Below are positions 739-64,000 of a DNA stretch of 64,000 nucleotides, piece by piece. How positions within the stretch are numbered: the first letter of the stretch is position 1; every line of letters begins with the position of its first letter. This DNA is from Desmodesmus armatus (Eukaryota > Chlorophyta > Chlorophyceae > Sphaeropleales > Scenedesmaceae): positions 1 through 64,000 of the forward strand of contig VIIQ02000785.1 of assembly GCA_007449985.2 (NCBI GenBank). The letters run 5' to 3'. The notes under the pieces are model-generated. The model saw only the letters and a program-made list of their open reading frames with translations, had not been told where the DNA came from and made no database searches. The position numbers and the translations under genes are program-made.

Positions 739-1039
739 CTACAGAAAAAGTAACGTCACGACGATGCGCATTCTGCTGTGCCATCATACGCTGCTGGGCG
801 GTATGCAAGTTGGTCTTGGCATGCTGTAAGACAGAATGCATGTCATCAGCAGTCACTTGGGCTGCTGGCACCAAGACAGGGCCTAATGCAACATCCAACA
901 CAGACAAAGGGCTCTGGCCAAAACACAAGAAAAATGGAGAGTAACATGTGGCTGGGTTGACAGAGTCATTGATGGCGTACTCAGCCAAGTCCAGCCAATC
1001 ATCCCAATCATCCTGCCGGGGAGAAACAAAATGCCGCAA
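689..1039 (-). pseudogene. Integrase middle segment (pol fragment)
   Basis: Continuation of the integrase core after a frameshift near 1105-1115. It has the AEYAINDSVNPATCYSPFF region typical of Ty3/gypsy integrases (WDDWLDLAEYAINDS block, then the FGQSP block). The reading frame ends at a stop near 689 that arises from a second frame change. The glutamate of the DD35E triad falls in the shifted stretch between this piece and the previous one. Confidence 0.85.
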
Positions 1040-1047
1040 GTACTCCT

Positions 1048-4382: not shown

Positions 4383-4604
4383 ACGACCAGCGCTGGTTTT
4401 GCCTGGGACAGGGGTGGTAGCTCTTGGGCAGTAGCTGGCCTAGCACACTGCCCCGCACGCCAGCTAAACCGAACACCGGGGAGGGGGGAACCTGAGCTGC
4501 CAGAAGACCGAAGACTGGAACCTAGTAGGCTTCCCATACTGCTACGGCAGGGCAAAGCCGACTTGCCTTGCAGTACAGCCCACTCCTAGCACAGCAGTAG
4601 CGAA

Positions 4605-5564
4605 CTACTGCTTGGCCGCCTTGCCGTCAGGGTGCTGTGTGCGCATTGAGCGAGCACGCTGACGACAGTCGGCGGTCCAGTGCCCTTGGCGGTGATGCCA
4701 GCTGCAGTAGGGCACTTTGCCGCTGGCAGGGGGTTGCTGAGGGTTGCGCTGTGGGGCACGCTGCAGCGACCCAAGCTCCATGGGGGCGGGGTGGCTGCTG
4801 CTGCCACTGGGCCTGCTGCCAAATGCTGGGTTGCGGTAACCGCCACCGCTGCTGCTGCTGCCGCCAAAGCTGCCGAAGGGGCTGAGCGCTGCCAGCCTAC
4901 CACTGAACAGCATGGTGTCGGCTGCCATAGCCAGGCTGACGGCTGCGTCCAAGGACCGCGGCTGGTGGAGGGCCACCTGCACCCTCACTGCGGGCTTGAG
5001 GGCGCGCACAAAGAAGTGAATGCGGGTGCCCTCATCCATCGCCGGCAGCTGCAGCATAAGGGCGGTGTACTGCGAAGCATACTCTGCAACACTGCGGGTT
5101 TGCAGCAGCCTGTCCAACCGGGAGCGTGCAAGCTCATGGGTGTCGTAGGGTGCAAAGCGCTGCATGAAGGCTTGCTTCATCTGCTGCCAACTGGTGAAGG
5201 GTGCTGCTCTACCTGCTGACACCTCCTGCTGGTAGATTACATACCAATCAAGGGCAGCATCCCTCAGGAAGGTTGCTGCAAGCTGGCAAGCTGCAGGGCT
5301 GTTGAGATTCACACCCTTCTGCTGAACATACACCTCAAACGCCTCTGAGAAGTGCTCCGGTGTGGGCTTCTTACCGTCCGTCTTAGGAGGCTTGGGTGTA
5401 CGCACCGATGACATCACGTGCTGCTGTTGCAGTTGCTGTTCCAACTGCACGCGCGACTGCCGCTCAAGCGCAAGCTGTTGCATCAGCTGTTGAAGTTGCT
5501 CCGACTGCTGAGACAGCTGCTCCGACTGCTGGGACAGCTGCGCCTGGAACTGTTCGAATTCCAT
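4605..5564 (-). CDS. gag: Gag capsid/nucleocapsid protein
   Basis: A 319-residue protein starting at the first ATG (5564); the open frame extends upstream to the primer-binding site without another ATG. Residues 1-60 form a glutamine-rich coiled coil (repeated LSQQSEQ). The middle is a retrotransposon capsid domain (AAQ-type WYVIYQQ, FAPYDTHELARSRLDRLLQ, ALKPAVRVQV). Near the C-terminus is one zinc knuckle with spacing C-X2-H-X4-H-X4-C (CSWHHRQGHWTADC). The usual second cysteine of CCHC is a histidine. It ends in TAG at 4605-4607, in frame with pol. It would package element RNA in cytoplasmic particles. Confidence 0.9.
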   Translation of the reverse strand: MEFEQFQAQLSQQSEQLSQQSEQLQQLMQQLALERQSRVQLEQQLQQQHVMSSVRTPKPPKTDGKKPTPEHFSEAFEVYVQQKGVNLNSPAACQLAATFLRDAALDWYVIYQQEVSAGRAAPFTSWQQMKQAFMQRFAPYDTHELARSRLDRLLQTRSVAEYASQYTALMLQLPAMDEGTRIHFFVRALKPAVRVQVALHQPRSLDAAVSLAMAADTMLFSGRLAALSPFGSFGGSSSSGGGYRNPAFGSRPSGSSSHPAPMELGSLQRAPQRNPQQPPASGKVPYCSWHHRQGHWTADCRQRARSMRTQHPDGKAAKQ

Positions 5565-5624
5565 ACGATGATTGTGAGGCGAGTGGGAAGCTGATGGGCT
5601 AAATTGGGCAACGAAGACCGAGGT

Positions 5625-5635
5625 CTCCGCTACCA
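5625..5635 (-). other. Primer-binding site, likely initiator tRNA-Met
   Basis: The minus strand reads TGGTAGCGGAG five bases inside the LTR end. TGG is the complement of a tRNA CCA tail, and the rest fits an initiator methionine tRNA acceptor stem ending CTCCGCTA. The tRNA identity is inference from family knowledge of chromoviruses. Confidence 0.7.
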
Positions 5636-5640
5636 CTTGC

Positions 5641-5957
5641 TGAGAGCTATGGGACGCTCTGTGAGTGCATGCATGCCAAGACTAGACTTTCCTATGCCTT
5701 TGGATGCCATGAAGAGAGTCTGGGCTCGGACTCAGAGAATCCTGCGAACGACGAGGTTACCAATGACCGAACAAGATAACAGATACAACTGGGAATGATG
5801 TAGGAAAGATAACCAGAAGGAATTGGAAGTGTCGAGCATGAGCGCAGGGCTCGTGCTTGATGCCGAAAGGTCGACTGGCCTTCGACCGACCAACCGGATT
5901 ACGGTTGTGACAGGCCGTTGACAACCAAAAGATAAAGTATCGAGCTTACTCATAACA
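5641..5957 (-). repeat. 5' LTR, 317 bp, TG...CA ends
   Basis: Bounded by TG (5641) and CA (5957) on the plus strand, matching the left LTR over most of its length and set next to the primer-binding site. It should hold the element promoter and start of transcription, directed leftwards. The first flanking bases to the right, CACGT (5958-5962), are the candidate target-site duplication; the partner copy is outside the window. Confidence 0.88.
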
Positions 5958-45044: not shown

Positions 45045-45830
45045 CAAGCGCATGGTCATTGCTCCGCCAGTGCAGCTGCCGCGGCAGCGACGTTTTGCAT
45101 TGTTGGTGTGTCATTTGCAAAGTACAGGATTGCTTTTTAGTACTACCTATGCTTTGGTTCTGCCAGATCTGGTGTCTCTCCGTTGTGGTCATACAATTGT
45201 ACATTGCAATGTAGCTATAGCAGACAGGTTTTGCAGCTGCTGCTCTACACAGCTTGCATGATGCTGCATTTGCTGGCAAGTGCCATATTGTTGATGAGGT
45301 TGCTGTGACCGTCACATCTGGTTTGGTTGCTGTATTTGTGACGAAGTGAGTGTGTGCTGATGCTACCAGAAGGCAGTCGTCATCAGCTGGCACTGCCTGG
45401 CAAGGTCCTGTGGCACACTGTATTGCCAGGTGGACCCATGACCGTGCTGTTGGCAAGCTCACGATGGGTTCACTGTGTTCACAGTGGTGTTGATATGAGT
45501 CAGCGCTGGGTTCAGCTTGGGTCTGATCGGTTGCTGTGTTGAGTTCTGCAGCGTGCAGTGCAGGCGTGCAATTTAGGATTGTAACAAGTGTGTCAGTGTT
45601 GATATCTGTTGGCACCGGGTTGGTGCGTGTGCAGTGGAATTGACGCTGTTAGTGTGCTGCCTCAAGGTGGTCGGTTGCGGTTGTCTTGTTCAGTAGTACC
45701 CTGGCTGCTGAGTGCAACAGGATGTAACGTGAGTTGATGCTTGGATGCAGTTGAAGACTGCCCCTTGGGACATGCGCAATCGGCCCCTTGCCACAATGCT
45801 GCTGGTTTTCACAAGTGCTTCAGCCAGCTG
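45045..45830. other. Intergenic, no gene recognised
   Basis: 3' flank of LRR copy 6 and of the minus-strand GlnRS gene. Nothing assignable beyond short frames. Confidence 0.6.
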
Positions 45831-46690
45831 CTTCACTTCGGGCCTTGGGGAATGACTCCCTTGGGGATGGATACCAGCAAAGTAATTGTGCGGTTGAACA
45901 CCAGCGGCCCGAATTTGCGGTCGGGGATGACAACAAAGTAGCCAGCACTTAACCATCAAACATGACCACAGCCTGAGACAGCTTTTTCAAGCCCTCACAA
46001 CACACAGCAGTCAGGCAGCCATGCAGCAATCAGCCAGCCGAATGCTGGAGGGTGCTGGAGAGACTGGAGGCAAGCTGATCAGGTGAAAAATATCCTTTTA
46101 TTATTGATGAATGAATACGTTTTCCGCACTATACCCGCACTATACCCGCACTATCAACTATGAGAAAAATGCACAGAAAACGTTGATGATGGTATAAGTT
46201 TTCACTGTGCGCCCCCACGCACTTATACCCAACTTCGGAATGTCACATCCTTGGATGGTTGATGCACTGGCTGGATGCACTCCCTGTGTCTACACACACT
46301 GCTGATTGCTGTTCTTGCTGTTGCTGCTGCTGCTTCACTTGAGGCCCTTGGGGAAGGACTCCCGCAGTGTAACTGTGCAGCCGAACACCAGCGGCCCAGG
46401 TTTGCTGTCGGGGTCAACAGCACAGTACCCAGCACTCAAACATGACCACAGCCTGATGCAGCTTTTTGACGTCCTCACAACACACACTGCTAGTTGGTGC
46501 TGCTACTACTGCTGCTGCTCTGCTGCTGCTGCAGCAGCTGCTATGCAGCCATGGCAGCTGCTTCACTCTAGGCCTTTGGGAAGGACTCATGCAGTGTGAC
46601 TGTGCGGTTGAACGTCAGAGCGCCCGGTGTGCTGTCAGGGTAGAAAGCAAAGCACCCAGAACTCAAAAAGCAACATGACCACAGCCTAAT
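45831..46690 (-). repeat. Three relics of GlnRS last exon
   Basis: Copies of exon 15 (encoding the [12 protein letters not shown] end) lie at about 45831-45975, 46333-46460 and 46561-46690. Each is followed on the sense-upstream side by the same CTCACAA-CACACTGCTG tail and CTG microsatellite. Divergence grows with distance from the true exon at 46758. They carry part of the stop-containing end, without the conserved acceptor and first codons. Confidence 0.85.
46245..46299. repeat. 54-bp dispersed repeat, copy A
   Basis: ACATCCTTGGATGGTTGATG followed by about 34 more bases recurs at 59318-59372 with about three mismatches, in the same orientation, 13 kb away within the same gene. Confidence 0.8.
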
Positions 46691-46757
46691 GCACCTTTTG
46701 ATGCCCTCACAATACACACTGCTGGTTGCTGCTGCTGCTGCTGCTGCTGCAGCTGCT

Positions 46758-48112
46758 TCACTTCAGGCCCTTGGGGAAGGACTCCCGCAGTGTGACTGTG
46801 CGGTTGAACACCAGCGCTCCTGGTGTGCTGTCTGGGTCCACAGCAAAGTAGCCCAACCGCTCAAACTGGTAGCGGTCAAAGGCCTGCGTTGTGGAGACAC
46901 ACGAAGGCAGCAAACAGCAAGCCTTGTCAGCTTCCGTGAAACTGCTGCTGCGTATAAAATCTTTCTTTCTGTCAGCATCTAGTACAGCAGATTGGTGAAG
47001 GGAATAGCAATTCGTCAACAAAGACCTACACACAGCACCCAATGCCAACTGCCACACCAATCTTACAGCCGCGGTTCAAGAGGTCCGTAAACATGCAACC
47101 ACACCACCGCCAACCTTGCATCCAGTGTCAACCGTTGACCCAAATCTTTGCTGGCAACCCACCTTTGCTGTCTGCGCTAGGTGTGGTGGGATGAAGGCAC
47201 CCTTGATGATCTGTAGGCTGTCAGGGTTGAGGTCTGTCAGCCACTCGTCACCCAGGGCGTCTGGTGACTCACTCTTGAACAACACCTCGTATAGCCGCAC
47301 CTGCGAGATTTTGCACAAATAAACGGGGGGGGGGGGGGGGGGGGGTGAGTGAATTTACATGCATAGGTGGCCAGCACAGCGCGTCTGGTGACTCACTATT
47401 GAACAGCACCTCATACAGCCGCACCTGGCAAAACAAGACAGAAAGGGAGCGTGCGGCGGAAAACAGGAGATCAAATTGGTCGTGGAGATTGAATGGCTGG
47501 ACAGAAAAAGGGTGGCCTCAGGGAAGCACCTGATAAGGGGGTGCGTGGAGGAGGAAGGGGGTATGATGTGTGGGGAATGTTCAAAGAGAAGGTGTGGGTC
47601 TGAGGTCCGTCAGCCACTCGTCACCCAGCGCATCTGGTGACTCAGTCTTGAACAGCACCTCATACAGCTGCACATGGGATCATGCAGCAGCAAGATGCAG
47701 GACTTAACGCATTATGGGTGATAACACAGCGTAGCTGCTATAAATTCTTTGGAAAGTGGAGGCTGATCGTGTGCATTAATGAAATACAACCACAACTGCT
47801 GGCTCCGGGTCCTAAGCAGCACCCTCATCTGTGAGCATGCTGTAGGACTTGGCCATGTGATCCACTTTCCACTTACACCCAAAGCTCCCCTACACTCTTT
47901 GCCCCCCCCCCCCAATTTTTTTTTGAAAGCTACCCACCTCTGCCTGCTGTGGGTCCTGCCCAGGCTTTGCCTGCCCCACCCAGTTGAGCACACCCTTGGG
48001 AGGCTTGCGGCCGCTCTGCGCAAACTCCAAGTCTGCTTCTGCCTGCACCTCACACACACTGCCGTCTGGGCCAGTACTGTAGCCCGTGACAGTGATGGGG
48101 AAGGCGTACCTG

Positions 48113-48149
<37 letters not shown>

Positions 48150-51100
48150 GGCAGCAACATCGGCTAAATACCTGGATGCAACGACGACTTCAGTGCATGC
48201 TCGGCTGGTGCAGCACCCCCCCCCTCCCCTCGCACAGCTGCTAACAGGACACTCGAAAATGACAACCAATATGGCAGCGCCACATGCACGCCACGAACGC
48301 GGTTCAGCAGCCGCAGCATAGCGCTCTTGGCCAGGCGCCAGGCCGTAGTAGTCCATGCTGTCCTGCAGCCTGAAGTCAGTGGCTTCAATGTACACCACCA
48401 CAACTAGCCCCCCCCCCCCCCGCCCCTGCCCCCAATGTCCTGCTGGTGCAATGCTCTACACGTCGGCACCGCCGCACAGACTGCCACATTACGTGTGGAC
48501 CAGAGGACCATCAAAACTAGCAGCAGCAGCACTCACCGCAGCATAGCGCTCTTGCCGGGTGCCAGGCCATAGTAGTCCTTGCTGTCCTGCAGCCTGAAGT
48601 CTGTTGCCTCAATGTACACCACCCGGCTGACCGGCAGCGGGTAGGGCTGGTTCTCGGGCCGCCCAGGCTGAGTGGCGCCGCTGACTGTTGCGCAGTGCTG
48701 CTCCGGTACATTGGTCAGCACCACCTGTTGCACATGAAGCAAAGCAAGATCATAGAATCATGTAACTTTCGAAGGGGGCAGCGGGTAGAGCTGATTCTCG
48801 GGCCGCCCGGGCTGTGTGGCGCCGCTGACTGTTGCGCAGTGCTGCTCCGGTACATTGGTCAGCACCACCTGTTGCACATGAAGCAAAGCAAGATCATAGA
48901 ATCATGTAACTTTCGAAGGGGGCAGCGGGTAGAGCTGATTCTCGGGCCGCCCGGGCTGTGTGGCGCCGCTGACTGTTGCGCTGTGCTGCTCCGGTACGTT
49001 GGTCAGCACCACCTGTTGCACATGAAGCAAAGCAAGATCATAGAATCATGTAAATTTCGATGGGGCAGCGGGTAGAGCTGATTCTCTGGCCGCCCAGGCT
49101 GTGTGGCGCCGCTGACTGTGGCGCTGTGCTGCTCTGGGACGTTGGTCAGCACCACCTGGGTTTGTTTGAAGCGGCGGGGAGCAGAGTTGCAAAATTCACA
49201 GTTCAGACCAGAAAGACACAGAGTTGAAAGGTTGGCAGGTATGGGCTGATTTACAGGCCGCCCAGGCTGAGTGGTGCCACTGACTGTCGCGCTGTGCTGC
49301 TGTGAAACATTGGTCAGCACCATCTGAAAGGAGGAAGAAGAGGGAAGGTGTACAGATGTTGGTGCAATAAGCTGGTAGGCTTGCAAGCATGGCCACCTGG
49401 CAGAGTGCCCAATAAAGCAATCACCGTGGTTGGACAGTTTCTGGATGATTGAAAAAGACAATCAAGCTGCTGACTATTGCACAGTGCTGCTGGGGGACGT
49501 TTGTCAGCACCACCTGATGCAATGGGAGCGAAGCACAAACTTTGACTCACAGCTGTGCTGGAACAAAGGGGCCCGAGTTGGTGGGTACAGGCTGTCCTGC
49601 AGGTCAGGCTTGCGGCATCCGGAACAGTCAGAGCTGCAGCTGTGATTCCGATAGCAAAATAGCCTCATTCATAATCAAGTTTGCTGATAACAGGAGGCAG
49701 GACTGGGATTGATCAGAGTTGTCGCACCTTCAGCGGCCGCAGCACCATCAGCACGATCACTCGTGGCGTCTAGGTGTGTTCGCACGTGGTGCCCCAGCTT
49801 GTGGTAAGCGATGCTACTAGGTAGGTCGTTTTGTCTTTCACCCCTATACCCAAGTACAAAAATCGAATTGCACATACCTTCAGCGGCCGCAGCACCATCA
49901 GCACACGGTCACTTGTGGCGTCCAGGTGGGTGCGCACATGGTGCTCCAGCTTGTGGTAAGGGATGACGTTGGCGTTGCGGGTGATGCCTATCTCACGGCA
50001 GAAGGCGTTGATTGACTCCGGCGCAACACCGCGGCGCCTCAGACCAGCAAGCGTTAACAACCTGCAGGCAGAAACCCAAGACCCAGACGGAAAAGTAAGT
50101 TACATGATGCCTATCTCATGGCAGAAGGTGTTGCTGGACTCCGGTGCAACACTGCGGCGCCTCAGGCCAGCAAACGTTGACAACCTGCATGCAAAGCCCA
50201 AGACCAAGACCGGCAAAGTGAGTTACATGATGCCTATCTCATGGCAGAAGGTGTTGCTGGCTCCGGTGCAACACTGCGGCGCCTCAGGCCAGCGAACGTT
50301 GACAACCTGTAGCCACAAGGGCCAATTGAGAGGGTAAGGGATGACGTTGGCGTTGAGCTTGATGCCGATTTCACGGCAGAAGGCGTTGATGCACTCCGGT
50401 GCAACACCGCAGCGCCTCAGGCCAGCGAGCGTTAACAACCTGTAGACAAACAAAGACCAGATCCAATGTGGCAAACTGATATTCATGGGCTTGTTTAAGG
50501 CTTCATATGGATGGACGAGCTTCAAAGCTGACTTGCTTTCCCATCAGCAACATGACGACGGCGCATTTCGTATGTTGTGCATTCACGGGTGCAATTGATG
50601 GCAGTGCTGCCAACTAGTGCAGACGTCACACACATAACAATGATAGGGATCAGCGCCAGCGCCGGCGCAGCAACATCAATAGCTCAAAGTATGAAGCCAG
50701 GCGCACAGAAGCCAGCTGGCACCCAGCCCAGTCCTTACCGTGGGTCATCCCAGCCATTGACGTAGTTCTGCATGACCAGCTTGTTGAGCTTGCGTTTGCT
50801 CATCACCGTGTTTGTGATGTTGAGCCGGCTGTACTCCCACACCACTGGCTTGTACAGCCCCAGCTCCTCTAACAACCTGAACACATGCATACATAGCAGA
50901 GGCAATACAAAGTTAGGTTGAGGGTTTGAGCTTCATGGATCATACAAGGCGGGGCCCCAAATGGCTTGTACAGCCCCAGCTCCTCTAGCAACAAGAACAC
51001 ATACATACACAGGAAAATACAGGAAGATCTGATACAATGTTGGGTGGAAAGTTGAGCCCCGTGTGTAGGTGGCTGTTCCACCTGCACGCTCTGGCTTAGG

Positions 51101-54100
51101 GGGCTCTAGCACCCTCCTCGATTGGGGCGAGTGCGATTGCAGAGCACAGAATTGGGCAAGGGCACAGTAGCCCAAACACAACATGCCAGCACCTGGCATA
51201 CTAGTGATGGGGGTACGGCAAAGATGCCAACCAACCACCACACATGAACATGTTGGAGGCCAAAAAGCCGGGTCCGTGCAGTGTGGGCCCCGTGTGTAGG
51301 TGGCTGGTCCACCTGCACACTCTGCTGGGCTCAAGGGGCTCTAGCACTTGTCCCCACTGCGGGCCAAGTGCGAGCCCCACCCACGAACATTCCAACGGAC
51401 ACTCGGCTGCTGGCAGGATTCGAACGCTGTACTGCTCCGCCCACCACAGTCCGCCGCCTTGTACTGCCAATGCCGGCTGGGCTGCTTGGCCTCCTTACCT
51501 GCCGCTATGACGAATTGGAGGCTTCATAAACAGCTGTTATCGGCCAGGGTTTAGCAGTCACGGACGGGAAGGTGACCGCGGTGAGGCGGTGTCGGTCATG
51601 CGGGCTGGTTGCTTTCGCGCACATTATGGTAGCTTACGCGGATTTGGATTGCTCATAAATAACGAACGGCCGCAAAGAACCTGATTGAACTCATAAGCCC
51701 CCCTTCCGAGCTGTTTCGCCAGCACAAGTGCCGTTCTGTGCGTGCTACCGCATTTATAGTATTTTTATTGTAACATATGTTGATGCATCTTCATCCATAG
51801 TCTTCATAAACATTTGCAACGTTCCACCCGTGTTCAATTCACTAGGATACAAGCTGCAGCAACGAGCCCATAGGCTTGCTTGCTTCTGCCCACAATCCAC
51901 CCACCATGTCTTCAAATTTTGCAATTGCTGGCGCAGCTGCTCCTAGGCCGCTACTGGTAACAACCCCACCTGCAGGTTTCATATGTGAGCCCGCCTTCTT
52001 GAAGCAGCAACACAGAGGAGTTGCAGCAGGAGTGGGCGGTCTATAAGGTGGGCACAGTGGGTGAGTGCAACCTCCTGCTGATGTCGCAACTTCTGCTGGT
52101 TACAGGACGCATACCCCTATACATACTCCTCTCATAACTCCCCCCTTGCCTCCTCACCCCACTGCCACCCCACCAAACCACATAATTACCAGTAATAGCT
52201 GGCGCGCCTGCTCTCAAACTCCAGTGTGCACAGTGAGTGCTTGATGTCTTCTATCAAGTCACACAGGCAGTGTGTTGAGTCATAGCTGGGGTAGATGCTC
52301 CTCGGCAGCAAGTCTCTGCCTCCCTCGCCCCCCCCCCCCCTCCCCCGCACCCCCCCACACACATAGTCCTAGTCGGACTATGTTGGTTTGCCTCATAGAC
52401 TACTTGCATGTGACTTGCATGTCCATAGTATGCTAGCTATGCTCAGTACTCCCTGTGCTGACACACATACACACAGCCACCACACCTGGTGGCGAGGACC
52501 CTTCCTCATCCCCCTCCTTCCTTTGCCCCCCCCCCCCCCCCGGGAAGGCAAAAGCTCCCTTCCGCCCCCCCCCCCCCCCACCCCCCCCCCCCCCCACCCC
52601 GCGCCCTCACCTCCCCACACCTCCCCACACTACCCACGGTGCTTACCAGTAGTAGCTGGCCCGCCTGCTCTCAAACTCCAGCGTGCACAGAGAGTGTGTG
52701 ATGTCTTCTATCGAGTCACACAGGCAGTGCGTGAAGTCGTAGCTGGGGTAGATGCACCACTTGTCACCAGCCATGGGGTGCTCCACATACTTGATCCTGC
52801 AGCGGGCGGGGGTCATGGGAACGGGTGAATGGGTGTGGTGCACTGGGTAGAAAACTGAGAACCGAGAAACCTTGGTTACAACACCGCGGCAACACTGTGA
52901 CACAGCTTCAAGTGAAAGCTGCCTCACAAAGTACAGCATGTGCTCCTTTACTGCCCTTTGTTGCATTGTGCAGCTTCTTTTGGTTCACCTGGACGTTACA
53001 TTGTTGTCACCCCCCTAGTTCACGAGGGAAGCCCACTGCATCCCCCCACAACACACCTGTATGCCACGCTGTCCCACATGTTAGGGTTTTCATTCTTGTA
53101 GTCCGTCTTGCCGGTGTTGCCTCACCCTTTCTGTACAACCCCACACACGTGATTCCACACCCACCCACAACCCCACCCAACACCGCGCAGTACCAAAACC
53201 CCACCAGCCCCTGGGAAACACCTGCCTTGTTGCATTCCAGCTTTGCACAACAACCCACAACAACTGAACCACTCAAGAAACTGCAAGACACACCTGTAAG
53301 CCACGCTGTCCCACATGTTTGGGTTTTCGTTCTTGTAGTCCATCTTCATGCGCAGTGTCGCCTCCCCCTCCTTGTACAGCCCTTGCGCATGCCGTCAAAC
53401 AACCAACGACAATCCCACCCTACACCATGCACCATAACCCAGTTGACCAAAGGGACACACATGCCTTGTTGCATTCCAGCTTTGCAACAACACACAACCA
53501 ACAACTGAACCACCCAAAACCCCGGGGACACACCTGTACGCCACGCTGTCCCACATGTTTGGGTTCTCATTTTTGTAGTCCATCTTCATGCGCAGTGTCG
53601 CCTCCCCCTCCTTGTGCAGCCCCTTGCGCATGTCGTCAAACAGCTTGAGGTTCTCCTCTATGCTGCGGTCTCGCCAGGGGGAGGGTGTGCCTGCCTCTCT
53701 GCTGGCCTCAATCTCTGCTTTGGTCTGGGAATCAGCAGGAGGGGTGAGGGCAGCAGAGGAGGGGGGGGGTTGCATGTGTCAGCAGCAGTGGGCATGTAGT
53801 ACTTGAAGACATGCCAACATTGGCCACCCAAGCTTTATAAGAGTGCAGTCTGTTTACTGGTGTGATAAGGGGATGCCTCAGTGTCATTGTTGTTCAATCA
53901 GCTCTCACCTGGTGGCACACGAATGCCTTGCCTGCCTTGATGAGCTGGATAGCCAGCGAATGCAGCTGGCCTAGACCCATGCTCGCACAATCTGGACGCC
54001 GTCCATTTCTAGCTGCAGGACTGAACCCAGTGCATTGCCTTTTGCTGAGCTGCTGCACACTGTCTTCCAAACCAACCCAGTGCCACTCTCAATCAAATAC

Positions 54101-57100
54101 CTTCTACTCCAACTTGGAGTAGGTATTTCAAATACCTACTACTGAGTTGACTCCACCCTCACCTGGTGGCACACGAATGCCTTGCCTGCCTTGATGAGCT
54201 GGATAGCCAGTGAATGCAGCTGACTAGGCCCATACTCACACAATCACAAAAACACCACTCTGTTGCTAGCTGCAGTGCATTGTCTTTGTGAAGATACTCT
54301 CAAGGTACTCCTAGAATGGAGTAGCTTGAGAGCATCGAGAGCAACCCCAGTGTCACACTTAGTTTATATGGCACTTGCTGCAATTCTGGTGGTTCTGCCT
54401 TCTTTGGTCAACCCGGTGTAGGTGGTGCAAACCACCGCAGGGGAGACAACTTATGAGGTTCACCTGGCTCGATCCTGGTGGGCAATGCCATTGTTGTTTG
54501 GCGAAAATGTCCATGTAACATACTCCCCCATATGCCTTGAACTCAACCAGTGAACCCACTCAAATCTCACCTGGTGGCACACAGATCCCTTGCCTGCTTT
54601 GATGAGCTGGGCAGCCAGCAAATGCAGCTAATCCCCCCCCCCCGGCCCATAACCTTGAGAATACTCTGTTGCTAGTTGCAGGATTGAACCCTGTGCATAC
54701 TCCCAACAGTGCTTCGTGACCGTTTCACACCCAGTGCCACTCTCGTTCAAACACTCTCAACTCAGCTCTCACCTGGTGGCACACGAATGCCTTGCCTGCC
54801 TTGATGAGCTGGATTGCCAGCGAATGCAGCTGGTCAAAGTAGTTGCTGGCGTAACTGATCTTCCAGGGAGTCCAGCCCATCCAGGCAACAATCTCCTGCA
54901 GGTGGGCGAACACGACAGCACACCACAGATCAGCCTGAGCCGTGTGCTGTATGTGGAGATAATGACATGACAGGCGGTGACAGGAAAGGAAGCGGTGGAT
55001 CACTAGTAGGTGGTACTCCAGGAAGTCCAGCCCATCCAGCCAAAACATCTTCTGCAGATTCAATCAAGCGAAAGGACGAACTTTCATGTTGCGGTGAAGC
55101 ACACGACTGCCAGGTAGGCATATCAGCAGGCATAAGTTGGACGTTTGAAGGCCTGGCGTCTGACCTGCCAGGTTTGGTAAAGCCCTAGACACTTGGAAGC
55201 CTTTGCAATCTTGTGTGCTGCTGCAGTCACAACTACACACTCTGATGGCCATGCTGCAATGTATGCGAGGAATCCCCCCCCCCCCCCCCCCGCGCGCGCC
55301 GCCCCGGGCCCAACACCTACACACCCGCAAACCTCTGTACGCTGGATGTACTCCCAGGCCTGTTCTGCCTCCACCTTCGTGCAGTATCTTTGTGCCAATG
55401 CTCAAGGCTCCCTACACCTTGCCGCTTCTGCCTCTTTGCTGTTTGAGTCCTGGAAGTGGTGCATAGCAGTCCAGTGCCACCACCCTTGCCCCTCTCTCCC
55501 CTAGCACCCACCCCCACCCCCACCCCCCACATCCCAGCTACACCCCCCCCCCCCCCCGCCCGCACACATACACACCCGCATACTTCTATATGGTCGATGT
55601 ACTCCCTGACCTCTCTGCCTCAATTTTTGGGCCATAAATATACACTGGCGCTTCTGCTTCCCTCCTGATCCAGGTGGTGATGCATAGCAGTCAATTGCCA
55701 CCACCCTGCCCCTCTCTCCCCTGTACCCTAGCCAGCTCTACTGTGCCCTAGCCAACAAACCCACCCCACCCACATATGTCCAGCTGCCCCCCTTCCTTCT
55801 CGCACGCGCATACCTCTATGTGGTCGATGTACTCCTGCTTCTCCGCCTCAGGGTTTGTGTCATCAAAGCGCAGGTAGCACGAGCCACCGTACTGCACTGC
55901 CATGCCAAAGTCAACAAACATCGCCTGCACAGACAACGGCAGAGGAGTCCCAGGGCAGAGGCATCACACAGCACAGCGCAGCTCGGTACAGGCCAGCAAG
56001 ACATGACAGGGCATGAGAGCACCATACATAGCCATCTAGTTGCTGGTGGACCTACAGCATCGAGAGTGACGCCGCACTGCCCACTGCGGCACACTGCAGA
56101 ATGGAATTGTAGACAGTACAGGAGCAGCAACCACCGCAGCCCATCATGTGTATCAGCCTTTCATAAGCCTCTGACTGCTTGGTGGCTATGACCCTGCCCC
56201 CAACACCTGTAATATGATGTAAAGTACTGTACCATACCGCACTGCACCGTACTGTATAGTACAGCATCACATGAAACCCTACAGTACTGTACATGCTGCA
56301 GTGTGTTGTCTGTACAGGATGTACAGTGATGTACAGTGCTGTACATGCTGTAGTGTGTTGTCAGTAGTGCACGCTGACAGTGCTGAGATACCATGGACTG
56401 CTCTGGATTGCACTGTAAATCCTCACCTTTGCATGACCTATGTGTAGGTAGCCGTTGGGTTCAGGGGGAATCGAGTGACCACCTTGCCCCCTGTGCGCTT
56501 CATGTGCTCTGCTAGCTGAGCTGCTGTATTGGAGATGCGCAGCACACTGCCATCACTCATGTTGACCTGAGTGTGCACCTGTAAGCAACAAGCAGACGTC
56601 CATCACACAAACTGTCATGCGCAGCAGTAATGCCCATCACACGGCTGCTTTAGACAATGCCACTCATGATGACCTGAGTGGGCACCTGCAAGGACTGCAG
56701 AAACTCCCAGGCAGCAGTTAGCAAGTTGTGCGGTTGTGTAAGGTATGGTCACGTAAGGTAAGGTCGTTACAGAGTGAGACTAATTATAGCAGCTGATGTA
56801 TTGACCCCCCCCCCTCCTGTCCCACCCCAGCCCGCCCCAAACCCCACCAGCCAGGCCACATACCACATTGTTGTCCTCAGGCTTGGGCATGAATGCGTAT
56901 GGGTCGTCTGTCGTGCCCGCTGCTCCCTCCTCCGGCCCTGCTGCTGCTGCTGCTGGCTTGGCTGCTGCGTCCGGCTTGGGTGGTGCTGCAGCCTTCTTCT
57001 CTGCCTGCACACACAATGAGCAGTGTGCACCAAATTCATTACACTGGGCATCTTCAAAACCACACATCAGTATGTGAGACACAGTGAAACCTTGAGTGGT

Positions 57101-60062
57101 GCAGCAGCCTTCTTGTCAGCCTGCACACAGAGAGTGAGCAGTGAGGAGGAAGTAATTACAGTCTTTGAGCATGTCAATGTACAGCCAGCCACACTGTGAG
57201 ACCCAGTGACAGCATGGGTGGTGCAGCCGCATTCTTCTCAGCCTGCACACAGAGAGTGAGCAGTTTGCACAAGCAGCAGCAGGGGTTGCTGCTGGCTGTT
57301 CTACCCCTTGCAAACAAAAAAATGTTTCATCTCAATTTTTTCTCCAATTTCATTTACAAACTCAAGTTATTGTTTCATCTCAACTCTTTTGAGTGGCGCA
57401 ATGTGGTTGTGCTGGTGGTACTTGTGCCATTGAGATGCCACTGCCAACACGCTGGCCGTCAGGCCGCAACTGACTTGCAACTCCTGGCGCACACACCAGA
57501 TGGCTGTGCAGCTGCAGAGCTGTTCCTAGCTTTGTTTTCTTCTTCTTCTCAGGTGGTTTCAAGTATGCCTCCGTTTTTGGCCCCAGCAGTGCCTCAACTG
57601 CTGACATCAGCTCTGCCCCCCCCCCCCCCACACACACTTTGTGACAGATTCATCACCAACAGTTGAACAATTATGCTCATCCCAGTCATCAGTGACACAT
57701 TCCCCTGCCCCAGGGCACTTGTCGCCCACACTATAGAGCCAGGCTGTACAGCATCTGCACAGCAATGGCATGACACAATCTCACCTTTGTTTTCTTCTTT
57801 TGCTCAGGTGGTTTGAGGTCTGCCTCTGTTTTTGGCCCCAGCAGCGCTTCCACTGCTGATATCAGCTCAGCCCCCCCACCCCCACCCCTCCCTATTGTGA
57901 CAAAATCATGACCAAAAATTCTAGAAACCTTACCTTGGTTTTCTTCTTTTTCTCCGGTGGTTTCAGGTCTGCCTCTGTCTTGGGCCCCAGCAGCACCCCC
58001 ACTGCTGACATCCGCTCAGCCCCCCTTATTGTGACAAAAACATGACAAACAAATCAAAAAACCTGTCAAAACAATTGTCAAACTGCTTGAGCGTACCTTT
58101 GTTTTCTTCTTCTTCTCCGGTGGTTTGAGGTCTGCCTCTGTTTTTGGCCCCAGCAGCGCCTCGACTGCTGACATCAGCTCTGCCCTGACTGCAGCGCCAT
58201 CGGCCCAGCGCAGCTGCTTGGTGATGGGAGCAACCAGCAGGTTGGTGTTGAAGTGGTACCTGGGTGTTGACCATCAGAATAAAGGGGATATCTCTCATGG
58301 AGGGGGGGGCGCATGTATGTTTGGGGGCACGGGGGAGAACAGGGCAACCAGAAACATGTTCAAAGCTGTACATGTACAGCAAGAGCTGGGCCAGTCAAAA
58401 TCAGATGTTGATGGCGGTACAACAGCTGGGTGAAAGCCACAAGGTGAACGAAGTATGGAAATTTTGGGTGATAGACCCCGAGAAGAATGAAGCGGTCATT
58501 TCCTTTTCGTCTGCATTCGTCGTCTTCCAGACGAAATCACTGATAGCCCACCCGACCCACTGCGAGTCCAACACCACATTGCCGGACATGCCGGTCAGGC
58601 TGTAAGCAATGTCAGCATTCGCTTCCTTTTGTTTTTCCACTTCCTTCTGTCGTTATCTGATTTGCAATCGACCACGAAACGAACTTGCAGGCATGTCAAG
58701 GCTCAAAGCGAGAAGAGTGCGCCCCAGGCTCAAACAGCACTCACTCACTCAAACAGCGCGGCTCCTAAACTATGAACGACACCACTGATTCATGTACCCT
58801 CAAGTTTGCAACAGTAGCATGGACTCATGGCTAGATGCACGTTAGCAGGTCATGAGTTGGATACCACCCCTTCCCCCCTGGGCATTTTTTGGCCACTGGG
58901 GGCACTGGGGGCACACCTTGGAGTACACCCATATATCTCGTTTGATGTGCTGCATGTATTTGAAAATGCTATCTTACTTTTGTGTTCACCCCCACTGTTG
59001 AAAGCAAAGTGGATGATCCACTTGTAACAACCTGCCCACAATTCACCCCCCCCCTCCCACCACCAAGGGCACAATCCTGTCACCACCGACACACACGCCA
59101 CCACCACCACGCCCCACATGCCCTGCTCCCAGCTCCTCTATGAGTTCATCCTTCTTTCCCTCCAGCACCTCAGCAACTGCTGCGTTGATCTGTTCTGCCC
59201 CCCCCCCCCCCCCAAAAATACACGCATCTACATCCCGAACGACTTTCATCAACCCTGGACCCCCCCCCCCCACACACACACACGCCACCAAGGAAATAAT
59301 ATCCTGCCTCCACACACACATCCTTGGATGGTTGATGCATTGGCTGGCTGCACTCCCTGTGTTTACACACATGACCCCCCCCCCCCCCCCCCCCCACCAG
59401 ACCCCACCCCACGCATATAGGGTAGAGTCCTCGCCCCCCACCGCCCCTCGTCCCTCCATCTGGCTCACCGCTCTTCAATCAATTCATCTTTCTTTGCCTC
59501 CAGCACCTCTGCAACTGCTGCCTTGATCTGCTCTGGTGTCACCTGCAGCAGCATACAAACAAAAAGGCGGGACAGAGAGGATTTGCCAGTCAGCACAGGA
59601 CTCAACTGAACTGTACAGAACACAACATGCCATCACATCAGAAGCCTCATGGCATAGCACAACACAATGCAACACTCAGTGAGGAACAGCACCCTGAAAA
59701 GTGCCTATCGCAATTTGGCATGGCGTACAACAACAAACAGATCACGATGTGTTTGTTGTTGCACTGCAACAGCACAGCACAGCACCCCACAGCATACCGC
59801 TCACGCCAGCTGACACCATATGCATGCAAGGTTGGATTGGTATGGAGTATGCAGCTACGCCATGTTGTCTAAGCCTGCGATGACTTTTGGTTGTGCGATG
59901 CTGACTGTCTTATTTTGCCACTGGCTGTGACTGAAAATTCATAATGCCTCTGCAGCTTCCCACATCACTCACCACGACACCAACACCTGAAGCCTCTTCA
60001 AATGCTGCACCGTCAAGGGCCTCAGGTCCCAACTTCTTCAGGAACTCAAAGGCGCCATCCAG
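46758..60062 (-). CDS. QARS1: Glutaminyl-tRNA synthetase (GlnRS), 5' end not seen
   Basis: Fifteen exons in sense order: 60062-59973, 59542-59469, 58259-58097, 57004-56864, 56578-56427, 55924-55814, 54895-54773, 53724-53534, 52796-52647, 50876-50739, 50061-49878, 48724-48537, 48109-47938, 47300-47163, 46883-46758. All have GT-AG borders with matching phases, giving about 713 residues; the human enzyme has 775. The N-terminal GatB-like domain is partial (GVGVVVTPEQI), then a K/A-rich linker, the class I catalytic core with HIGH (exon 5), the RFDDTNPE block (exon 6), VMSKRK as the KMSKS loop (exon 10), and the anticodon-binding barrels ending [10 protein letters not shown] and FNRTVTLRE. It charges tRNA-Gln in the cytosol. 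The first about 90 residues should lie upstream, beyond or within the satellite. Exon 5 is one base short before HIGH (C run at 56464-56468). Confidence 0.95.
47317..47346. repeat. Poly-G tract in GlnRS intron
   Basis: An uninterrupted G run between exon 14 and its first relic (plus-strand sense). It marks the break between intron sequence and duplicated segment. Confidence 0.8.
47378..47678 (-). repeat. Two relics of GlnRS exon 14 5' end
   Basis: At 47378-47427 (with a tgccag acceptor, then V-R-L-Y-E-V-L-F) and about 47598-47675 (longer, reaching the DEWLTDL codons). Both lie upstream of exon 14 in the sense direction and lack its 3' end and donor. Confidence 0.85.
48317..48402 (-). repeat. 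Relic of GlnRS exon 12 3' part
   Basis: Encodes [23 protein letters not shown], nearly the same as in the true exon (48537-48724), and stops abruptly at a C-run/G-run on its sense-5' side (48406-48422). Located downstream of the exon. Confidence 0.88.
48725..49515 (-). repeat. Array of five relics of GlnRS exon 12 5' part
   Basis: Units at about 48771-48869, 48915-49013 and 49059-49157 repeat with a period of exactly 144 bp (acceptor, [10 protein letters not shown] codons and about 50 bp of upstream intron). Older copies lie at 49237-49325 and about 49467-49513. All lie upstream of the exon and each keeps the tgttgcag-like acceptor side only. Confidence 0.92.
49727..49808 (-). repeat. Relic of GlnRS exon 11 3' part
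   Basis: Copy of the exon 11 end (codons for [15 protein letters not shown] and VLRPLK) with a ggtgcgac donor-like start of intron. It lies about 70 bp downstream of the true exon end at 49878. Confidence 0.88.
50105..50439 (-). repeat. Three relics of GlnRS exon 11 5' part
   Basis: At about 50105-50184, 50229-50306 and 50331-50439, each encoding variants of [19 protein letters not shown] and keeping a cag acceptor. All are upstream of the true exon (50061). The third extends furthest into the exon. Confidence 0.9.
50961..50992 (-). repeat. Relic of GlnRS exon 10 5' part
   Basis: Encodes [10 protein letters not shown] like the start of exon 10 and lies about 85 bp upstream of it. It is short and its acceptor is decayed. 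Confidence 0.8.
51055..51353. repeat. Diverged direct repeat in GlnRS intron 9
   Basis: 51056-51115 and 51286-51352 share a segment containing CCCCGTGTGTAGGTGGCTG and GGGGCTCTAGCAC, about 230 bp apart. This is a tandem duplication wholly inside the intron. Confidence 0.75.
51408..51477 (-). other. Degenerate tRNA-like sequence
   Basis: The minus strand has a good B-box (GTTCGAATCC), an A-box-like TGGCAGTACAAGG, and acceptor arms GCCGGCA/TGCCAGC pairing in six of seven positions. No proper D stem or anticodon loop forms, so it is more likely a tRNA relic or part of a tRNA-derived SINE than a working tRNA. Confidence 0.35.
52189..52310 (-). repeat. Relic of GlnRS exon 9 3' part
   Basis: Encodes [18 protein letters not shown] and on to SRRASYYW with no stop, followed by gtaatt in place of the donor gtaagc. 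Located about 340 bp downstream of the true exon end. It lacks the acceptor and first codons. Confidence 0.9.
52526..52596. repeat. Poly-C tracts beside exon 9
   Basis: Two long C runs (52530-52541 and 52566-52595, nearly continuous) between exon 9 and its relic. More C runs lie at 52330-52355. Confidence 0.8.
53057..53402 (-). repeat. Two relics of GlnRS exon 8 3' part
   Basis: At about 53057-53125 and 53293-53402, spaced about 238 bp from each other and from the true exon end at 53534. Each has the DSVAYR codons and a donor. Flanking intron sequence (TTGTTGCATTCCAGCTTTGC) is part of the repeat unit. Confidence 0.9.
53905..54632 (-). repeat. Three relics of GlnRS exon 7 3' part
   Basis: At about 53905-53973, 54161-54232 and 54567-54632, each encoding variants of [16 protein letters not shown] plus the gtgag donor. 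The third abuts a C run at 54635. All lie downstream of the true exon (54773-54895). Confidence 0.92.
54095..54332. repeat. Two small hairpins inside the exon 7 relic array
   Basis: 54297-54332 has 15-bp arms with one mismatch (CTCTCAAGGTACTCC and its complement, 6-nt loop). 54096-54132 has a similar ACTCC/GGAGT stem with a one- or two-base bulge. They may be diverged copies of one structure amplified with the relics. Confidence 0.65.
55011..55055 (-). repeat. Relic of GlnRS exon 7 5' part
   Basis: Keeps a tctgcag acceptor and codons resembling WMGWTPWK. Located upstream of the true exon. Confidence 0.75.
55332..55630 (-). repeat. Two relics of GlnRS exon 6 3' part
   Basis: At about 55332-55380 and 55581-55630, encoding variants of EYIDHIE and followed by gtatgcggg or gtttgcggg donor-like starts. 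A long C run adjoins each (55267-55285 and 55541-55558). Shared flank GTGGTG(A)TGCATAGCAGTC at about 55455 and 55676 shows that intron sequence was copied too. Confidence 0.8.
56281..56363. repeat. GTACAGT-rich short direct repeat
   Basis: A segment with CTGTACATGCTG and GTGTGTTGTC occurs twice about 50 bp apart in the intron after exon 5, within a wider stretch of GTACAGT/ACTGTAC motifs. Confidence 0.7.
56655..56690 (-). repeat. Relic of GlnRS exon 5 5' part
   Basis: About 36 bp resembling the exon 5 start (acceptor tgcag, then codons close to V-H-T-Q-V), upstream of the true exon by about 80 bp. Confidence 0.65.
57085..57266 (-). repeat. Two relics of GlnRS exon 4 5' part
   Basis: At about 57085-57125 and 57196-57266: ctgtgtgcag acceptor followed by codons like A-E-K-K-A-A-A-P-P. 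Both are upstream of the true exon start at 57004 and lack the donor. Confidence 0.85.
57536..58021 (-). repeat. Three relics of GlnRS exon 3 3' part
   Basis: At about 57536-57618, 57783-57872 and 57931-58021, each encoding variants of [20 protein letters not shown] and the K-rich end; the two right-hand copies keep a donor (gtgag or gtaag). All begin on the sense side at almost the same exon position and abut a C-rich run on the plus strand. Located downstream of exon 3. Confidence 0.92.
59110..59217 (-). repeat. Relic of GlnRS exon 2 3' part with G run
   Basis: Encodes [22 protein letters not shown], close to the true exon. On the sense-5' side it abuts an uninterrupted G run (59198-59213 on the plus strand as C). 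Located downstream of exon 2. Confidence 0.9.
59318..59397. repeat. 54-bp dispersed repeat copy B and C run
   Basis: Second copy of the repeat at 46245-46299, immediately followed by a C run of about 21 (59376-59396). Confidence 0.8.
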
Positions 60063-60880
60063 CTGAGGCGGGCTCTATAGTTATTGGGGGGGGGGGGGGG
60101 GGAGCCGCAACATAAAAGAATGGGGGTGTTGACATCAAGCCAAGAACGCAGCTTTGCAGTTGCCCATGTAAGATGGAGTGGCTGTGGGGGGAAACACATG
60201 TGTTTCAGCATCAACAGCCTCACACCCTTGACTCTCCCAGAAACAAAATCCGACCCATTGAGCTGAGGCGGGATCTGAAGTTGATGTGGAAGCATGGAGT
60301 GCAACTCCAGTGGTGTAAGTGTGTGTGTGTGTGTGTGGGGGGGGGGGGGGGGTGGACGGCAATGGCAGCTACAATAGGGAAGAACAGCCAAGAGGCGGCT
60401 GCAAATAATTATATGTCAAAGGTTGCGGTCATCACAATCATTGACAAGAAGCACACTGCAGCTGCCCTTTGACTGTACATCCTTCAAACTCCCTACCTAC
60501 AGGGAATGCTTGGAGTGTGTGTCAGGAGGGGTAGACCCAGCCATCCTTACAGGGCGTCAAGCCAATGGGAGGTAATCATAAGGCGTTATTGGGTTTGGAA
60601 GGGGCCCTGAAGCATTATATTACACCGGGGATGTCAACCTCCTAGGGCGCTGGGCAGCACAGTGCGGACGGGTGAGGGATAAAGCGCAGGAGGGGAGGGG
60701 GGCCAGCAGTGCCAAAGTGCTGGGGATCATCCCCCCCCCCCCCCCCCGTAATGGTGCCAATTCAGCCTTCAAGCTTCCCCAGGGGAGCGGGAAAATGTGC
60801 AATGTGAGCCTGGCCCAACCACTGATAGATAAAGACGGTCGTCAAAGGGGATAGGGGGGGGGGATTGCTTGAGTATAGTG
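60063..60880. other. GlnRS 5' side, no upstream exon recognised
   Basis: Contains a weak relic of the exon 1 acceptor region at about 60252-60285, G runs at 60084-60101 and 60338-60351, and a C run at 60731-60747. The missing N-terminal codons of GlnRS are not visible here. An open frame at 60672-60854 has no recognised domain. Confidence 0.5.
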
Positions 60881-63800
60881 TGTAAAATTAGGTTTGAAAA
60901 AGTGAAGCAGCCCGCCACTTGGCAAACTGGTAGTGCGTTTTAGTCTCTCATGGCAACGCCAGGTCTCATTATTTGCTGCATGGTATCCCACACAACTGGC
61001 TCTGGATGGACTGCGATGCAGTTTGAGGGAAGGGGCCCCGATGGTGGTGAACCGCACACGCCTAGCAGGGGCAGCCCGTGAGGTGGGCTTTTCAAGGGTG
61101 TAAACACAGGGAGGGGGGGGTGTCAAGGAAGCAGGTGTAAGGTGTTGGTGTGGAAGATTGAAGGGGCTGACGGCTGGCATAACCACCATACACCGCAGTC
61201 TTTGCTGCAAGGTGTCCCACCCAAGTGGCTGTGAATGGAGTGCAATGCTGTTGGAGGGCAGGGGCCCTGAGGGTGGTGTACGGCACACGTCTAGCAGGGG
61301 CAGCCCGTGAGGTAAAGAGGGCTTTTCAAAGGTATCGACGTGTGGGGGGGGGGGGGTATGGTCAAGGAAGCAGGTGTAAGGTGTTGATGTGGAAGATTGA
61401 AGGGGCTGACGGCTGGCATAACCACCATACACCGCAGTCTTTGCTGCAAGGTGCCCCACCCAAGTGGCTGTGAATGGAGTGCAATGCTGTTGGAGGGCAG
61501 GGGCCCTGAGGGTGGTGTACGGCACACGTCTAGCAGGGGCAGCCCGTGAGGTAAAGAGGGCTTTTCAAAGGTATCGACGTGGGGGGGGGGGTATGGTCAA
61601 GGAAGGAGGTGTAAGGTGTTGATGTGGAAGATTGAAGGGGCTGACGGCTGGCATAACCACCATACACCGCAGTCTTTGCTGCAAGGTGCCCCACCCAAGT
61701 GGCTGTGAATGGAGTGCAATGCTGTTGGAGGGCAGGGGCCCTGAGGGTGGTGTACGGCACACGTCTAGCAGGGGCAGCCCGTGAGGTAAAGAGGGCTTTT
61801 CAAAGGTATCGACGTGGGGGGGGGGGGGGTATGGTCAAGGAAGCAGGTGTAAGGTGTTGATGTGGAAGATTGAAGGGGCTGACGGCTGGCATAACCACCA
61901 TACACCGCAGTCTTTGCTGCAAGGTGCCCCACCCAAGTGGCTGTGAATGGAGTGCAATGCTGTTGGAGGGCAGGGGCCCTGAGGGTGGTGTACGGCACAC
62001 GTCTAGCAGGGGCAGCCCGTGAGGTAAAGAGGGCTTTTCAAAGGTATCAACGTGGGGGGGGGGGATGGTCAAGGAAGGAGGTGTAAGGTGTTGATGTGGA
62101 AGATTGAAGGGGCTGACGGCTGGCATAACCACCATACACCGCAGTCTTTGCTGCAAGGTGCCCCACCCAAGTGGCTGTGAATGGAATGCAATGCTGTTGG
62201 AGGGCAGGGGCCCTGAGGGTGGTGTACGGCACACGTCTAGCAGGGGCAGCCCGTGAGGTAAAGAGGGCTTTTCAAAGGTATCGACGTGGGGGGGGGGGGG
62301 GGGGGGTATGGTCAAGGAAGCAGGTGTAAGGTGTTGATGTGGAAGATTGAAGGGGCTGACGGCTGGCATAACCACCATACACCGCAGTCTTTGCTGCAAG
62401 GTGCCCCACCCAGGTGGCTGTGAATGGAGTGCAATGCTGTTGGAGGGCAGGGGCCCTGAGGGTGGTGTACGGCACACGTCTAGCAGGGGCAGCCCGTGAG
62501 GTAAAGAGGGCAAAGGTATCAACGTGGGGGGGGGGGATGGTCAAGGAAGGAGGTGTAAGGTGTTGATGTGGAAGATTGAAGGGGCTGACGGCTGGCATAA
62601 CCACCATACACCGCAGTCTTTGCTGCAAGGTGCCCCACCCAAGTGGCTGTGAATGGAGTGCAATGCTGTTGGAGGGCAGGGGCCCTGAGGGTGGTGTACG
62701 GCACACGTCTAGCAGGGGCAGCCCGTGAGGTAAAGAGGGCTTTTCAAAGGTATCGACGTGGGGGGGGGGGGGATGGTCAAGGAAGGAGGTGTAAGGTGTT
62801 GATGTGGAAGATTGAAGGGGCTGACGGCTGGCATAACCACCATACACCGCAGTCTTTGCTGCAAGGTGCCCCACCCAAGTGGCTGTGAATGGAGTGCAAT
62901 GCTGTTGGAGGGCAGGGGCCCTGAGGGTGGTGTACGGCACACGTCTAGCAGGGGCAGCCCGTGAGGTAAAGAGGGCTTTTCAAAGGTATCGACGTGGGGG
63001 GGGGGGATGGTCAAGGAAGGAGGTGTAAGGTGTTGATGTGGAAGATTGAAGGGGCTGACGGCTGGCATAACCACCATACACCGCAGTCTTTGCTGCAAGG
63101 TGCCCCACCCAAGTGGCTGTGAATGGAGTGCAATGCTGTTGGAGGGCAGGGGCCCTGAGGGTGGTGTACGGCACACGTCTAGCAGGGGCAGCCCGTGAGG
63201 TAAAGAGGGCTTTTCAAAGGTATCGACGTGGGGGGGGGGGGGGGTATGGTCAAGGAAGCAGGTGTAAGGTGTTGATGTGGAAGATTGAAGGGGCTGACGG
63301 CTGGCATAACCACCATACACCGCAGTCTTTGCTGCAAGGTGCCCCACCCAAGTGGCTGTGAATGGAGTGCAATGCTGTTGGAGGGCAGGGGCCCTGAGGG
63401 TGGTGTACGGCACATGTCTAGCAGGGGCAGCCCGTGAGGTAAAGAGGGCTTTTCAAAGGTATCGACGTGGGGGGGGGGGGGGGGTATGGTCAAGGAAGCA
63501 GGTGTAAGGTGTTGATGTGGAAGATTGAAGGGGCTGACGGCTGGCATAACCACCATACACCGCAGTCTTTGCTGCAAGGTGCCCCACCCAAGTGGCTGTG
63601 AATGGAGTGCAATGCTGTTGGAGGGCAGGGGCCCTGAGGGTGGTGTACGGCACACGTCTAGCAGGGGCAGCCCGTGAGGTAAAGAGGGCTTTTCAAAGGT
63701 ATCGACGTGGGGGGGGGGGGATGGTCAAGGAAGGAGGTGTAAGGTGTTGATGTGGAAGATTGAAGGGGCTGACGGCTGGCATAACCACCATACACCGCAG

Positions 63801-64000
63801 TCTTTGCTGCAAGGTGCCCCACCCAAGTGGCTGTGAATGGAGTGCAATGCTGTTGGAGGGCAGGGGCCCTGAGGGTGGTGTACGGCACACGTCTAGCAGG
63901 GGCAGCCCGTGAGGTAAAGAGGGCTTTTCAAAGGTATCGACGTGGGGGGGGGTATGGTCAAGGAAGGAGGTGTAAGGTGTTGATGTGGAAGATTGAAGGG
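60880..64000. repeat. Satellite array, ~235-bp units with variable poly-G
   Basis: About 13 head-to-tail units continue past the window end. Each has a nearly constant 223-224-bp body and one G tract. Twelve tracts begin at 61344, 61581, 61816, 62054, 62288, 62526, 62760, 62996, 63230, 63469, 63709 and 63944, with lengths from 9 to 19. Two variants are intermixed, differing at the tract edge (TATGG or ATGG) and at GAAGCAGG/GAAGGAGG. The unit from about 61087 is more diverged, and 60880-61086 more so, as expected at an array edge. Long minus-strand frames through it change with the G count and are not convincing genes. Confidence 0.95.

Follow-up and report, generated by a model that had tools for sequence, protein, structure and literature searches.

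Partial copies of their own sequence lie beside 14 of the 15 modelled exons of a GlnRS gene in the green alga Desmodesmus armatus, E13 (47938-48109) being the sole exon without one; our count of 33 copies, of which the one at E1 is marginal, bears out the original prediction of about 30. The gene forms part of a stretch of 64,000 nt that was analysed as a whole (hereafter the window). The copies adjoin their parent exon and share its orientation, they are polar with respect to it, they cover a range of divergence, part of them belong to tandem units with matching intron sequence, and their occurrence is linked to intron length. We consider it probable that repeated local tandem duplications lengthen the introns, that selection removes those duplications that double a whole exon, and that the frozen exon keeps the ends of the copies readable.

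Exon models and exon-edge copies of the GlnRS gene

We relied on splice sites and reading frame to model the 15 exons, all on the minus strand, and the identity of the protein as GlnRS is confirmed by its top matches, which are eukaryotic-type GlnRS structures (best E 3e-171); the solved structures 4ye6 and 4r3z we take to be human. E1 (59973-60074) had been regarded as the first exon but is internal: an AG precedes it at 60075-60076 and the alignment starts at residue 85 of the solved chain, which indicates that the gene continues further upstream, with earlier exons there. In E5 (56427-56578) one base is missing from a C homopolymer and the frame shifts within the exon, before the HIGH motif; this is probably a sequencing or assembly error. 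E15 (46758-46883) contains the stop codon. For the census of copies each exon was locally aligned to its surroundings at E<=0.01, and one spurious row for E2 (57858-57825) was dropped because it lies within an E3 copy, past exon E3. All copies described below are on the minus strand, as is the gene.

Upstream of E1, a marginal copy of 28 nt (60255-60282, E=0.005) carries the 5' part of the exon and an AG. E2 (59469-59542) has one downstream copy of its 3' part (59125-59197), which has lost the donor and has a G-tract just before it; between the exon and this copy lies a dispersed repeat of about 60-90 bp (59307-59397, minus strand), found at dozens of listed places with 78-97% identity. Three downstream copies follow E3 (58097-58259), at 58022-57931, 57873-57783 and 57618-57527; all begin at exon nt 74, and the first two have a GT donor. 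Two copies with AG (57270-57212 and 57142-57091) lie upstream of E4 (56864-57004) and one, likewise with AG (56661-56692), upstream of E5, while E6 (55814-55924) is followed by two copies with GT (55638-55573 and 55354-55322).

Both sides of E7 (54773-54895) are occupied, the upstream side by one copy whose AG is not at the border (55017-55057) and the downstream side by copies A (54629-54558), B (54222-54150) and C (53969-53894), each of which has GT. Partial, though displaced, homology persists between the spacers that follow the exon and copy B, and a 21-nt palindrome with 10-nt arms around one base (54119-54139, minus strand) lies between the donor of copy B and the displaced intron homology. 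Intron 7 also contains a 165-bp block (54369-54533, minus strand) that is 98-100% identical at at least 39 other places among the best 40 of 453 candidates. At all five copies of the block in four fetched stretches the sequence continues beyond it, and it therefore resembles the terminal piece of a longer dispersed element that was active recently.

Downstream of E8 (53534-53724) are two copies with GT, the first of which (53401-53287) has retained intron homology, and the second of which lies at 53142-53051; E9 (52647-52796) has one downstream copy with GT (52149-52301), and E10 (50739-50876) one upstream copy that has lost the AG (50962-51012). E11 (49878-50061) is preceded by three copies, all with AG (50448-50333, 50318-50228 and 50203-50105), and followed by one that carries the 3' part and a GT (49726-49813). 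The largest series belongs to E12 (48537-48724), with five upstream copies, all with AG and spaced 143-190 nt apart (48777-49535), the youngest of which form a 144-bp tandem array, and with a downstream copy of the 3' part (48311-48399) that has lost the donor and has one base inserted. Of two copies upstream of E14 (47163-47300), one has lost the AG (47679-47596) and the other has an AG with an unrelated flank (47427-47377). Local alignment places three copies downstream of E15 at 45825-46652, with homology past the stop codon of 8, 44 and at least 148 nt; they fall outside 46758-60062, the range to which the pattern had originally been confined.

Local direct repeats make up 43% of one half of the GlnRS gene and 35% of the other, 0-10.6% of the window tiles before 46 kb and, on average, 2.6% of the first 23 other loci; no window tile and no locus yielded inverted repeats. 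The tile after 60.1 kb consists to 78% of local direct repeats and represents a satellite array: at 60972-64000, on the upstream side of the modelled GlnRS exons, a tandem series comprises about 13 units of 235 bp, with 34 changes among them, too few for a usable mutation spectrum. Elsewhere in the window, frames at 262-5681 (minus strand) with gag-, RT/integrase- and chromodomain-like parts, recognised by eye, resemble a Ty3/gypsy-type retrotransposon, and several long frames at 8307-44637 (plus strand), in which similar leucine-rich repeats and a common N-terminal motif were read by eye, apparently constitute a local gene family.

Polarity, adjacency and occurrence in other genes

The polarity of the copies in the GlnRS gene is as consistent as had been predicted: all 17 downstream copies reach the 3' end of the exon, all 16 upstream copies reach its 5' end, and a whole-exon or opposite-polarity copy is absent among the 33. 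When the exons alone were used as queries (E<=1e-3), 31 of 31 matches fell in the stretches that flank the parent exon (introns or, in the case of E1 and E15, the outer flank; 25,012 nt summed), with no match elsewhere in the gene (212,850 nt summed over exons) and none inverted. Inverted or dispersed copies within the gene, of which the exon-only matches contain no example, can thus be dismissed as the source of the pattern, and so can reverse-transcribed pieces of mRNA, given that no copy stands next to a non-parent exon. The duplication of whole exons with subsequent loss of one half is likewise rejected, because both polarities would be expected from it.

A second gene, encoding IleRS (L029; 12 exons modelled, identity confirmed), contains 12 copies of six exons, of which 11 have the expected polarity, one of them ending 9 nt short of the exon end, and one is a weak internal fragment; all 12 matches of its exon-only queries adjoin the parent exon, with none elsewhere and none inverted. 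We also considered 26 further loci with kinesin and tRNA-synthetase domains, whose 110 exons are the limits of Pfam matches rather than full models. Ten of these exons were matched, nine of them with a border copy; the matches comprise nine downstream copies with the 3' part, four upstream copies with the 5' part and one internal match, and no opposite-polarity or whole-exon copy was found at the 110 exons. The internal match is in L013, where three such matches appear at a reach of 2500 nt and one was counted at 1500 nt. Many repeat pairs in the 26 loci fall outside the Pfam-limited exons, and several of those in L032 look coding on translation. L014 and L017 are similar kinesin loci that share nine matching pieces of 68-86% identity, with much of the sequence between them unaligned, and are probably paralogues.

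Taken over all genes, 57 of 59 copies have the expected polarity (GlnRS 33/33, IleRS 11/12, the 26 other loci 13/14), and the two exceptions are internal fragments, of 37 nt in I3 of the IleRS gene and of 22 nt in L013. Downstream relics that carry acceptor ends, the observation named beforehand as speaking against the pattern, number 0 among the 59 copies, and none of the 59 is a complete second exon with both acceptor and donor.

Loci with a larger median intron spacing have a higher fraction of repeats (rho 0.70, p 7e-5, 26 loci). Without the four later-fetched loci L032-L035, of which L032, L033 and L035 were chosen for their long introns, rho is 0.56 (p 0.006, 22 loci), and for the 20 kinesin loci fetched first it is 0.52 (p 0.018). 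In loci with a median spacing of at least 450 nt, 7 of 34 exons were matched, and in loci below this value 3 of 76, one of these being the internal match. From the match counts and the correlation with intron spacing it follows that the border-copy pattern belongs to long-intron genes, neither to the whole genome nor to one gene. The polarity recurs in the IleRS gene and other loci, but with matches at 10 of 110 exons the pattern is not genome-wide.

Origin of the copies

We propose that genes with long-grown introns have undergone many separate local tandem duplications of different ages. If one breakpoint of a duplication fell in an exon and the other in an intron, the full exon with its two splice sites would persist next to a partial copy that splicing could skip; a downstream copy would comprise the 3' end of the exon and the donor, an upstream copy the acceptor followed by the 5' end. 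Selection would remove duplications of a whole exon, or within an exon, since these alter the protein, whereas those confined to introns would be tolerated but turn unreadable as intron homology is lost, largely through insertions and deletions. The exon-derived ends would remain legible, their parent exon being held constant by selection, and exon edges may thus serve as a tracer for intron growth. Selection, splicing-neutrality and the order of events are the parts of this scheme that we infer.

Head-to-tail units that include intron homology are present at the first copy of E8, at E11, at E12, at the first copy of I6, and in L030 and L035. If duplications with the unit lengths observed fell at random, 27% would touch one border, 20% would include a whole exon and 52% would be confined to an intron in the GlnRS gene (29, 20 and 50% in the IleRS gene). 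Among the repeat families observed in the two genes, 21 touch an exon and 2 do not, and no whole-exon copy occurs. The 15 of 16 exon-touching families in GlnRS were reached in 6 of 2000 circular shifts and the 6 of 7 in IleRS in 131 of 2000; families that leave the exons untouched are thus scarcer than expected, which counts against the proposal. This scarcity of intron-only families fits a faster loss of intron homology, perhaps helped by a true border preference, and the absence of whole-exon copies fits selection. As for the predicted removal of the remaining duplications by selection, the missing whole-exon duplicates, one fifth of random events, agree with it, but the polarity does not count towards it: polarity is a matter of geometry, since any tandem duplication with an exonic breakpoint yields it, and alone it is no evidence of selection.

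The range of divergence among the copies agrees with the expectation that they differ in age; it counts against the proposal that in E3, E7 and E11 the nearest copy is not the most similar one, as it is in E8 and E12. Over 14 selected pairs we counted 72 substitutions in 1028 exon-derived nt and 160 in 1231 flank nt. The resulting ratio of 1.86 is near the value of about 1.55 calculated for a neutral copy together with an exon that changes only silently, i.e. for a neutral copy of a frozen exon. The same pairs contain 3 gaps per 1028 nt of exon-derived sequence and 80 per 1231 nt of flank; unrelated segments under the same alignment give 13.5 gaps per 130 nt, and some of the flank gaps hence stem from poor alignments.

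Codon, flank and splice-site tests were carried out with E15 left out. For GlnRS without E15 and IleRS together, the AG is at the border in 16 of 20 upstream copies and the GT in 17 of 21 downstream ones; in sum, 33 of 41 copies retain the splice dinucleotide, some with unrelated but plausible flanks. This retention might point to copies kept by selection for a role in splicing, for instance as decoy donors or acceptors, and so might the changes in younger copies at positions that the exon shares with the oldest copy (silent 18, replacement 17, against 29% silent expected). However, several copies carry frameshifts or have lost splice sites, the substitution ratio is near neutral, and it is hard to see why such elements should be needed by nearly every exon of one gene and by few exons of most others, which makes a splicing role very improbable in our judgement. 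In the codon comparison, the GlnRS copies show 87 silent and 67 replacement differences (87/154, with shared changes collapsed) and the IleRS copies 38 and 46 (38/84, with shared changes uncollapsed and the weak internal fragment included), for comparison, random changes are silent in 28.7% of cases, from which about 45% silent differences would be expected in a neutral copy. As the silent excess in GlnRS has no counterpart in IleRS, selection on the copies is not established.

Flank homology beyond the splice site is detectable in 19 of 40 testable copies, some of which may owe it to exon copies in the flank, and undetectable at p<0.05 in 21 (GlnRS 16/30, IleRS 5/10); one further IleRS flank was too short for the test. 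Of the 21 copies without flank homology, 18 have an exon-part identity of 85% or more, and in many copies homology stops within about 26 nt of the splice site despite a well-kept exon part. Several non-coding copy pairs display the same contrast between a kept exon-derived part and a diverged flank, and a stricter anchored test finds flank homology in only 4 of 33 copies. Simulated neutral duplicates that accumulate small indels only, even many of them, keep flank homology in 95-100% of trials at exon identities of at least 0.845. A simple neutral tandem duplication for every copy therefore misfits the flank data and was rejected: the idea of splice-neutral border duplications is supported as far as recurrent tandem duplication with exon and intron breakpoints is concerned, but one neutral duplication per copy leaves 21 of 40 flanks unexplained. 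Candidate causes of the lost homology are large insertions in slip-prone intron sequence, exchange between exon and copy, or exchange between diverged haplotypes.

The second of these candidates can be extended to a different account of the copies, in which duplication starts them and gene conversion or unequal exchange with the exon, confined to the exon-derived part, keeps this part similar while the flanks diverge, with exons as recombination hubs. The homology that ends near the splice site in many copies of 85-98% exon identity is what such exchange would leave behind. Likewise, copies B and C of E7, which are non-coding, differ at 1 of 60 exon-derived sites and at about 4 of 23 sites in the shared junction, and past the donor no homology between them can be detected. 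The youngest E12 copy matches the exon throughout its initial 53 nt and the next copy at the 4 later differing sites, and the older fourth E12 copy agrees with the exon at 3 of these 4 sites, like a product of exchange. On the other hand, this chimera is a single example (run test p 0.15) that later exon changes could explain, and mismatches show no clustering within the copies (42 alignments, still with the spurious E2 row and E15; combined p 0.93), so that we hold exchange with the exon to be possible but improbable. Should it nevertheless operate, repeated exchange would keep exon-derived intron sequence matched to the coding sequence while the flanks drift, introns would grow around self-renewing edges, and exons may acquire silent changes from their own fossils; exons acting as hubs in this wider sense we regard as unlikely.

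Unequal exchange between strongly diverged haplotypes, or with a lost paralogue, whose exons are alike and whose introns are not, would make a copy the exon edge of the other haplotype with its own splice site and intron. Copies without clear intron homology indeed often possess a plausible but different acceptor or donor (E12 c3-c5, E14 c1, E11 c1, I4), and the differences in GlnRS lean towards silent ones. Nevertheless, we think this quite unlikely, considering the lack of a silent excess in IleRS, the frameshifts and lost splice sites of several copies, and the low identity of the L014/L017 pieces, which is paralogue-like; nor was a second GlnRS gene seen, the other PF00749 matches being on C591 (nearest GluRS) and on C113 (not classified). 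That haplotypes or reads were mis-joined in the assembly is barely credible: the base missing from the E5 homopolymer makes small errors probable, but the copies are of many ages, number up to six per exon, combine decay with strict polarity and occur in several genes and contigs, and the window is without any N. Recurrent local tandem duplication thus remains the reading that we prefer for the origin of the copies.

Known systems and the growth of introns

Introner elements and other mobile intron makers leave repeated sequence inside introns. The copies described here differ from these in that they match the neighbouring exon, whose exon-only query has no match elsewhere in the gene. When the genome was searched with intron 7, 46700-50870 and 54900-60060, the best 40 candidates of each search included no outside match that coincided with an exon copy; the outside matches listed were to the 165-bp block, the 60-90-bp repeat and simple repeats.

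A tandem duplication across an intron-exon boundary has been described for potato RdRp (Ma, Lan, Niu 2016, PMC4974935), where one event created a new intron and added exon sequence, whereas here dozens of copies remain within existing introns and decay. In the AGGT model (Rogers 1989; Hellsten 2011, as described in PMC4974935) an intron is gained when an exon segment that bears AGGT is duplicated in tandem; in that description the model resembles our case in being a local, protein-neutral tandem duplication that touches exons. However, what is duplicated in the Rogers model is exonic, and the outcome is a new intron, while here introns lengthen and none is evidently new; the copies sit within introns, each keeping one outer border of its exon, and we rejected intron gain of this type. 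Internal gene duplication (Gao and Lynch 2009, cited in PMC4974935 for duplications containing entire introns, and listed in PMC3488318) is, as far as these citing passages go, similar as an intragenic tandem duplication, but whole-exon copies are absent from our 59. The original view that no standard description exists has to be narrowed accordingly: the single border-crossing duplication is in print (PMC4974935), whereas a gene-wide polar series of border relics tied to intron length was not found in a thin literature search and, to the extent of that search, is the new part.

How introns lengthen in compact genomes is poorly resolved. The loss of flank homology beside well-kept exon pieces presents a concrete and testable anomaly. 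Frozen exon edges, used as tracers, make it possible to count events, to read their polarity and to estimate the ages of intron duplications that are otherwise unreadable, and they permit a gene-by-gene test of selection on splicing-neutral duplications.
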